Shown: positions 8,896 through 9,206 of the stretch, piece after piece | Layout: the number at the start of each line of letters is the position of its first letter | How positions within the stretch are numbered: position 1 is the stretch's first letter | Source: Planctomycetota bacterium | GTDB taxonomy: Bacteria > Planctomycetota > Phycisphaerae > SM23-33 | Reading direction: 5' to 3' | Assembly: GCA_029553505.1 (NCBI GenBank) | Contig: JAKPKY010000250.1 | Coordinates: 1-33,571 of the forward strand | Length of the DNA: 33,571 bases | Notes under the pieces: generated by a model | The model's database searches: none | Told to the model about the DNA's origin: nothing | What the model saw: the letters and a program-made list of their open reading frames with translations, nothing else | Position numbers and translations under genes: made by a program

Positions 8896-8969
8896 GGGGC
8901 CGTAGCTCAATTGGTTAGAGTACCGGACTGTCGATCCGGATGTTGCGGGTTCGAATCCCGTCGGCCTCG
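8896..8969 (+). tRNA. tRNA-Asp (anticodon GTC)
   Basis: The cloverleaf is complete. The acceptor is GGGGCCG (8896-8902) paired with CGGCCTC (8962-8968) with one G-U; the D stem is GCTC/GAGT. The anticodon stem is CCGGA/TCCGG (8923-8927, 8935-8939) with loop CTGTCGA and anticodon GTC at 8930-8932. The T arm is GCGGG-TTCGAAT-CCCGT (8945-8961), followed by discriminator G8969, as expected for Asp. CCA is not encoded. A terminator follows within 10 bases. Confidence 0.96.
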
Positions 8970-8977
8970 TTGAACCA

Positions 8978-9007
8978 AGACTCGCCCGAGCGGCGAGTCT
9001 TTTTTTG
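8978..9007 (+). terminator. Terminator of tRNA-Asp
   Basis: A 9-bp stem AGACTCGCC/GGCGAGTCT (8978-8986 with 8992-9000) with loop CGAGC is followed by a run of T. It ends the tRNA transcript. Confidence 0.9.
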
Positions 9008-9039
9008 CGCCAGGCGACCGATTGTGCCCACGGGATTCG

Positions 9040-9108
9040 AACCCGCGCGGGCCCGAAGGGCACGCCCTGCGGGTTTGCTCCCGAAGGGTCCGCGCAGCGA
9101 ATCCCGTC
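9040..9108. repeat. Palindromic element built from tRNA T-arm sequence
   Basis: The outer arms ACGGGATTCG (9040-9049) and CGAATCCCGT (9099-9108) are exact complements. An inner GCGCGG/CCGCGC pairing and two CCCGAAGGG-type palindromes fill the loop. The left arm reads as a T-arm on the minus strand, and the right arm matches the T-arm of the functional tRNA-Asp. No D arm or anticodon arm is present on either strand, so this is not a tRNA gene. Confidence 0.7.
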
Positions 9109-9153
9109 GGCCTCGTTAAACCAAGACTCGCCGATTCGGCGAGTCTTTTTTTG
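9098..9153 (+). repeat. Diverged second copy of the tRNA-Asp 3' end plus terminator
   Basis: Bases 9098-9117 repeat 8952-8971 exactly (tRNA T-loop to just past the 3' end), and similarity continues through the terminator and about 50 bases of flank. The offset is 146 bases. The terminator stem (9124-9132 with 9138-9146) is kept, but its loop changed from CGAGC to GATTC. Only the tRNA 3' end is copied, so this is a remnant, not a second gene. Confidence 0.85.
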
Positions 9154-9206
9154 CGCCAAGCGAATCGATTGCGCCTGCGGGATACGAACCCGCGAGCGAC
9201 GGGCCG

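Follow-up and report, generated by a model that had tools for sequence, protein, structure and literature searches.

A probable RtT-type tail-repeat array with a palindromic element behind a tRNA-Asp gene in Planctomycetota

RESULTS

The tRNA-Asp gene and the duplication of its tail

The window, that is, the whole analyzed stretch of 33,571 nucleotides, belongs to a Planctomycetota genome (G000) with an assembly of 2.5 Mb and a completeness of 73%. A tRNA-Asp (GTC) gene was located on the forward strand at positions 8895–8970 by ARAGORN and by Rfam (RF00005, 71.3 bits). The tRNA alone was found in an Rfam search of the whole window; low-score matches to Plastid families, sX4, tRNA-Sec and others all lay under their own cut-offs and were rejected. 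The tail of the gene, from the T-loop to the 3′ end (positions 8952–8971, the 20-mer CGAATCCCGTCGGCCTCGTT), was found to recur on the same strand at positions 9098–9117. As a previous sequence-only reading of this DNA had stated, this second copy is exact and lies 146 bases downstream; it forms part of a 66-nt direct repeat (8952–9017 and 9098–9163) with 91% identity. When one indel was allowed, the repeat reached about 96 bases (8952–9047 and 9098–9194, 87.6% identity), which leaves 50 bases (9048–9097) between the two copies.

A terminator stands behind each tail on the forward strand. The first (8977–9006) consists of the stem GACTCGCC/GGCGAGTC, the loop CGAGC and a T run, and the second (9123–9152) consists of the same stem, the loop GATTC and a T run. 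Both were found by a terminator scan (8977–9001 and 9123–9147, each with a T tail), which counted four terminator-like sites in positions 8700–9300, compared with a mean of 0.8 in shuffled sequences. The ten-pair stem is identical in the two copies, and the scan assigned one extra pair to the second terminator. Scan and sequence thus agree with the earlier statement that the terminator recurs with the same stem and an altered loop. Moreover, each copy is closed by a minus-strand T-arm, at positions 9026–9046 (95% complementary to 8945–8965) and 9173–9193 (86% complementary to the same positions), which confirms the T-arm-like stretches that had been noticed there. The coincidence of an exact 20-mer with a terminator at a distance of 146 bases is not a matter of chance.

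A palindromic element between the two copies

In addition to what the earlier reading described, positions 9032–9107 constitute a single structured element of about 76 bases on the forward strand, and positions 9179–9194, by their likeness to 9032–9047, resemble the left arm of a second, truncated element. The first element was matched over its full length by the covariance model R1 (see below) at 68 bits, a score given by a model that has the window element itself among its 21 seed sequences. According to the sequence and the alignment, the element begins with a left arm (9032–9047) that is an inverted copy of the T-arm of tRNA-Asp (17 of 17 positions match when the two preceding bases are included). 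It continues with hairpin 1 (GCCC-GAA-GGGC, 9051–9061), a direct copy of the 5′ half of the T-arm (GCGGGTTTG, 9069–9077) and a hairpin insert in the T-loop (9078–9097), which is composed of CCC-GAA-GGG and a GC-GCA-GC mini-hairpin extending to position 9098. In other words, the right end of the element is a direct T-arm that carries a hairpin in its loop and runs on into the copy of the tRNA 3′ end. The minimum-energy fold of the window copy has an outer stem, with inner arms that are unlike the four-way junction of the family. A search of the same genome with R1 gave two matches, each behind a tRNA, and the core pattern with up to three mismatches was found at one place. A palindrome of the REP/RAYT type was considered and rejected, as the genome holds only these two matches and not many dispersed copies.

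Neighboring genes and the same locus in a relative

On the reverse strand, the neighbor of the tRNA locus in this Phycisphaerales genome is a gene for topoisomerase VI subunit B (TopoVI-B, 9207–11132). Its relatives are numerous in Planctomycetota MAGs, and some of them are labelled Myxococcota or Woesearchaeota. Among ten reading frames of the window, Pfam matched five (TopoVI-B, a sub-threshold TIM barrel, dehydroquinate synthase, a phosphodiesterase and an FAD oxidoreductase) and none was an integrase; PADLOC, applied to the same ten frames for defence cargo, gave one weak match, to a desaturase model. Cargo of an island or of a defence system was considered here and rejected. At 10 of 12 TopoVI-B loci from other genomes, no tRNA was present in the stretch examined.

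In G001, a genome of the same genus, the tRNA is followed by one terminator, GGGATTCAAACCCGCG and then the TopoVI-B gene; this locus contains one unit, with neither a duplication nor an island. Counted by eye, copy 1 of the window shows 7 differences from this single copy and copy 2 shows 10. The contrast reflects the loss of a unit from G001 or the gain of one in the window, and the left arm with which both loci end (9179–9194 in the window) would favor an older array in decay. The promoter of the tRNA-Asp gene of G001 (L005/L035) harbors about 130 additional bases with inverted repeats, which are absent from the window (equivalent position near 8776–8785). They are bordered by the direct repeat GCATTGACAA, which contains the –35 box, and judging from the sequence this looks like a small MITE-type insertion that retained a promoter.

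Distribution and anatomy of the family in the class

We used positions 9020–9112 as a search seed, which returned paired inverted matches behind other tRNA genes. A strict pattern, defined as a T-arm whose loop holds an insert, was then found at 27 places in 20 of the 397 genomes of the class, and the reversed pattern used as a control had zero hits among the matches listed. A same-strand tRNA precedes 18 of the 27 places, and one (L124) has a downstream tRNA only. The other eight have no tRNA in the stretch; one of these lies at a contig edge and seven look like chance matches. At the loci that were read, the common order was the tRNA tail, a spacer that frequently contains a terminator, GGGATGAGAAC or GGGATTCGAAC, the stem, hairpin 1, GCGGGTTYGAC, hairpin 2, GCCGCGAAG and the tail again.

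The model R1 was constructed from 21 aligned elements, all of which had been found beside tRNAs. Its right end covers part of the T-arm, and a match to the tail is therefore partly built into the model; the presence of a tRNA is not. At E ≤ 0.01, R1 gave 126 matches in 100 stretches, with matches in 55 of the 397 genomes of the class, and at E ≤ 2e-6 it gave 89 strong matches in 80 stretches. The set of 89 elements (alignment A5) was drawn from 80 of the 100 source stretches, L261–L280 being omitted. Within this set a conserved core was recognized, with TGAGAA in 42 and GTTYGAC in 72 of the 89 elements. Tandem copies were present at many loci (e.g. L155, L202, L210, L231, L256, L259 and L269).

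A second model (R2) was built from Planctomycetes elements alone, with no RtT sequence included. Of 392 genomes of the phylum searched at E ≤ 0.001, nine had matches, namely eight genomes of the class and G548, which has no tRNA in its matching stretch. Because R2 is biased to serine T-arms and strict filters were applied in the large searches, the absence of matches beyond the class is weak evidence. Six weak R2 matches in 19 genomes reached via other loci had no tRNA in their stretches and were taken as chance. At L349 (G165), larger GC-rich repeated palindromes were observed 3′ of a tRNA-Ser(gct) gene at about positions 1380–1720, with GTCGGACCCGCGGGCGCC units near GGCGGGATGCGCG; these are possibly an expanded relative of the tail-repeat element.

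Association with tRNA genes

For 79 of the 89 strong elements, a same-strand tRNA was called within 300 nt upstream; an opposite-strand tRNA was found there for none of the 89, and a same-strand tRNA within 300 nt downstream for two. Of the ten elements that had no called upstream tRNA, six have fewer than 130 bases of upstream sequence. By eye, a tRNA-like tail was visible just upstream of the elements at L224, L236 and L255, which have no called tRNA, and none was visible at L234. Serine tRNAs precede 58 of the 79 elements, and the remainder lie behind tRNAs for Arg, Pro, His, Glu, Thr, Asp, Tyr, Ala, Gly, Met and Cys; a Gln tRNA appeared among the weaker model matches. We count twelve isotypes, that is, Ser and eleven others, with Glu not counted, as both Glu cases have poor or short tail copies.

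We compared the tail copy with the tail of the element's own tRNA in 71 first elements. The longest stretch in common measured 14 nt or more in 56 of them and 10 nt or more in 63; the remaining eight had little or no copy of their own tRNA tail. In G332, a check that made no use of the model gave 9 of 40 distinct tRNA genes with an 18-nt copy of the tail at a distance of no more than 500 nt (up to four mismatches allowed), compared with 0 of 40 when the tails were reversed. One of these nine, a tRNA-Met gene (L327), is followed by a 25-base insert and an 18-nt tail copy that is exact by eye, with no palindrome; such a minimal tail duplication could represent an early or a decayed stage.

Left arms matched to the host tRNA

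From the reading of the loci, the left arm mirrors the inverse of the T-arm of its own tRNA, odd bases included. For example, TCCGAAT in the T-arm of a tRNA-Thr faces TTCGGAC, and TTCGAGT in that of a tRNA-Arg faces CTCGAAC. We compared the left arms, and these only, of 80 of the 81 first elements with the T-arms, and found that the own T-arm was the best or tied for best in 65 of 80 elements, and that another arm matched better in 15. For the 50 elements whose tRNA is unlike the commonest T-arm, the own arm was a better match than the commonest one in 42, an equal match in 5 and a worse match in 3. The summed own-arm matches of these 50 elements amounted to 702, compared with a mean of 592 and a maximum of 622 after permutation, and none of 2000 permutations reached 702. 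In G288, the units behind tRNA-Arg(cct) and tRNA-Cys (L248 and L259) are alike in their hairpin core and different in their arms.

Secondary structure, gain and loss

The consensus fold of the family has small hairpins in addition to an outer stem and a long arm that carries hairpin 1, and it is predicted for some members only. In alignment A5, which was fitted to the model and has 89 rows, the paired cells amount to 93.3%, compared with 79.6% in shuffled alignments and 25–46% in slid controls, and both sides change in 17 of 22 pairs. In alignment A3 (21 rows, aligned using MAFFT and not fitted to the model), 89.3% of the cells pair and both sides change in 8 of 22 pairs; further pair types numbered 16 versus 15.9 in shuffles, which is no excess. 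Mini-hairpins of the form C-GNA-G occurred 188 times in the 89 elements, compared with 21.4 times after shuffling, and each of the 89 elements has at least one.

Occupied and empty sites were found within a single genus. Behind tRNA-Ser(gga), a unit is present in G113, G075 and G081 and none is present in G069; behind tRNA-Ser(cga), of six genomes compared, only G069 has units (two, the second cut short), and G081, G113 and G075 have none. Among the three carriers at tRNA-Ser(gga), identical site comparisons were 87/87 for the tRNA end, 50/54 for the tail copy, 181/195 for the element and 195/224 for the spacer. The element is thus dispensable, and any constraint on it is mild. It changes somewhat less than its spacer in this one species trio, and constraint is therefore possible.

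DISCUSSION

The preferred reading and its mechanism

The best reading of the elements, from the features compared here, is that they are a divergent relative of the RtT tail repeats, and we are largely confident that the window locus is an RtT-type tail-repeat array. The fuller account, in which a tRNA-anchored array of one whole unit and a truncated second goes together with a mechanism of recombination and template switching at the DNA level, is the one that we favor, with some reserve. The proposed mechanism on its own part is tentative, and our confidence in it falls a little short of even.

The order observed within a unit is the tRNA tail (T-loop to 3′ end), the terminator, the palindromic element with its host-matched arm and the next tail copy, and in the proposed account the element would act at the level of DNA. 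The tail copies are direct repeats, often of at least 18 nt, and the gain and loss of units by recombination or slippage between them is therefore possible. Units may spread between tRNA genes that have a common tail, as is often the case among serine tRNAs, and sharing of the whole tail among the latter would ease ectopic recombination to a new tRNA, which we regard as a candidate route. Template switching at nearby inverted repeats could keep the hairpins perfect and copy the T-arm of the host into the element, and the distance from the true T-arm to its inverted counterpart is commonly no more than about 100 nt. One study (PMC8794818) describes template switching as able to create and mend hairpins and, in such a geometry, to homogenize arms and yield perfect stems. 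Such switching would explain both the host-matched arms and the covariation without selection. However, the conserved core (TGAGAA, GTTYGAC), which recurs in E. coli, exceeds what is expected from template switching alone and counts against the mechanism. Also on the opposing side of the preferred account are the somewhat slower change of the element than of its spacer in the one trio, the 15 elements matched better by another T-arm, the absence of an excess of pair types in A3, the divergent fold of the window copy, the absence of an RF00391 match in the window and the low R2 scores for RtT. Beyond a second terminator, the unit is probably of little use to the cell.

Alternative explanations

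The main rival is a mobile mechanism acting in trans, in which a miniature element homes to tRNA T-loops and is moved by a tyrosine recombinase or by an HUH single-strand transposase that reads the hairpins, the tail copy being the junction or target duplication. This would agree with a copy that, in most of the 17 kinds of tRNA encountered, starts from within the T-loop, with the occupied and empty sites within one genus, with the G288 units that share a core and differ in their arms (L248 and L259), and with the presence of a C-GNA-G mini-hairpin in 89 of 89 elements. We nevertheless judge it unlikely. Two specific patterns had 0 exact matches in viral contigs, and a BLAST search with one element found nothing in plasmids and one phage match, which was a tRNA. 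Moreover, about 76 bases are too few for a useful reading frame, the duplication can pass the tRNA end and continue through the terminator (in the window, L155 and L153), unlike a fixed target duplication, and the arms would need to be rewritten at every new tRNA.

We also considered that the element is a functional RNA, a mimic of the tRNA tail that would be freed from read-through transcripts and act in the stringent response, by analogy with E. coli rtT. Release of that RNA and an effect on the stringent response have been claimed (cited in PMC4986893), E. coli RtT is annotated as the small RNA RttR, Northern signals are reported for RtT homologues of Actinobacillus in the same paper, and the covariation in A5 is strong. 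This explanation appears improbable, as the elements are patchy (55 of 397 genomes) and can be absent within a genus, and as a terminator separates the tRNA from the element in the window and, by eye, in several relatives also. Template switching likewise predicts covariation, which may come from the mechanics of mutation as well as from RNA function.

That the extra tail copies are decoy attachment sites, which absorb integrating phages and spare the tRNA, is very improbable. In its favor, the copies are close to the tRNA's own tail, and presumed prophage records in IMG/VR have RtT-type arrays at their ends or close to them. On the other side, the tail copies are not invariant: 50 of 54 site comparisons were identical, compared with 87 of 87 in the tRNA.

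The sequence-only reading had proposed either the trace of an attachment site after loss of an integrated element or a local tandem duplication. The second proposal is partly right, since the unit is tandem at many loci, but it leaves out the conserved palindrome within the unit, which is found again behind different tRNA genes of other genomes. As for the first, the stretch from the T-loop to the 3′ end of a tRNA is the usual integrase core, and this is the stretch that was copied here. The refuting conditions that this reading had set for itself cut both ways, in that G001 has neither a duplication nor an island, and the palindrome family occurs almost only at tRNA genes. What survives of the idea is this integrase core, together with the location of RtT-type repeats at, or close to, the termini of presumed prophage records. 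From the short stretches examined, a remnant of an island integrated at the tRNA is hardly credible, because with a tRNA within 300 nt of 79 of the 89 elements and the same small element filling the gap there is no room for an island, one and the same element occurs at many isotypes, with tails specific to the isotype, the terminator is duplicated as well, and G001 has one unit and no island. Duplicated tRNA tails are unsafe evidence for lost islands.

Comparison with known systems

REP/BIME sequences, which are moved by RAYT, resemble the window family in being short GC-rich DNA palindromes. Unlike them, the window family is tied to the 3′ ends of tRNAs, where it has a copy of the tail and an arm matched to the host, and is not dispersed between genes. 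REP families have been reported from Planctomycetes (PMC3733652), and RtT-like sequences have been noted among enterobacterial BIMEs (PMC2965389). In titles and abstract openings, with few subscription journals covered, no report of such units in Planctomycetes or of host-matched arms was found, which is weak evidence of novelty.

Closer parallels are found in the RtT repeats themselves. At E. coli tyrV, three exact copies of the last 19 nt trail the gene, 178 bases apart, and the units contain GGGAAGGATGAGAAGCTTCG, AAGGTTCG, hairpins and AATCCTTCC; they were identified as RtT (RF00391). The repeats behind E. coli tyrT are a named oddity, and we know of no accepted origin for them. In a 2-kb stretch of E. 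coli tyrT/tyrV, R2 ranked the four RtT units first (E 0.0006–0.016; next match 0.8). Across the searches, R2 scores for RtT are low (11.8–20 bits). In the opposite direction, RF00391 gave no RtT match in window positions 8880–9240 at E ≤ 10 and, under strict filters, none at E ≤ 0.001 in any of the 397 class genomes, and E. coli was recovered as 1 of 14 controls. Units of the window family, like those of RtT, trail a tRNA, end in a copy of its 3′ end and occur in tandem (the second unit of the window being truncated); both have an inverted T-arm with TGAGAA, followed by GGTTYG, hairpins, AATCC and the tail. Unlike RtT, the units of the class are shorter and lie behind many isotypes, the window unit includes a terminator, and in the window copy the place of TGAGAA is taken by TTCGAAC, the plain inverse T-loop. 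In Actinobacillus and other Pasteurellaceae, RtT homologues are reported near other tRNAs and described as upstream of them (PMC4986893). Because R2 scores are low and two other viral stretches score close, the link with RtT rests no less on the shared anatomy and the TGAGAA/GGTTYG motifs than on scores.

Similar arrays were found in presumed prophages. A looser pattern was present in at least 120 viral stretches of IMG/VR; among 132 matches in the 120 stretches listed, two lie within 900 nt of a same-strand tRNA seen by ARAGORN. Six of the stretches were read, and all had RtT-type units behind a serine-like tRNA tail, five of them with two or more pattern matches. RF00391 gave eight matches above its cut-off in the three presumed prophage records scanned (L376, L405 and L403), the host of which is presumably enterobacterial. 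When R2 was applied to 80 of the 120 stretches listed, the eleven best scores (about 20 bits) were those of RtT-type units of prophage records, and two further stretches picked by the pattern, with contents uninspected, scored 18.4 and 17.9. As in the window family, the units of these arrays (about 166 bp) are composed of a tail copy, a terminator and a GGGGGATGAGAAG..GGGGTTCGAC palindrome, and in L376, L405 and L403 the terminators vary between units and the stems stay paired, as judged by eye. Unlike the window family, they have a longer hairpin part and are recognized by RF00391. In the presumed prophage records L403, L405 and L423, separate units of one RtT-type array carry one or the other of two markedly different terminators, GCCTGAAC..GTTCAGGC and GTCCAGA..TCTGGAC.

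A broader generalization is doubtful at present, namely that RtT and these elements form one widespread class of tRNA-homing palindromic DNA elements, which would copy the T-arm of the host into their arms, pass from one tRNA to another and form tandem arrays at the site of phage integration. The gain and loss of units and the rewriting of arms can be tested in E. coli. The recurrence of this anatomy behind twelve isotypes of a distant phylum, together with an arm that follows its host, would turn the single oddity represented by the RtT repeats into a class.
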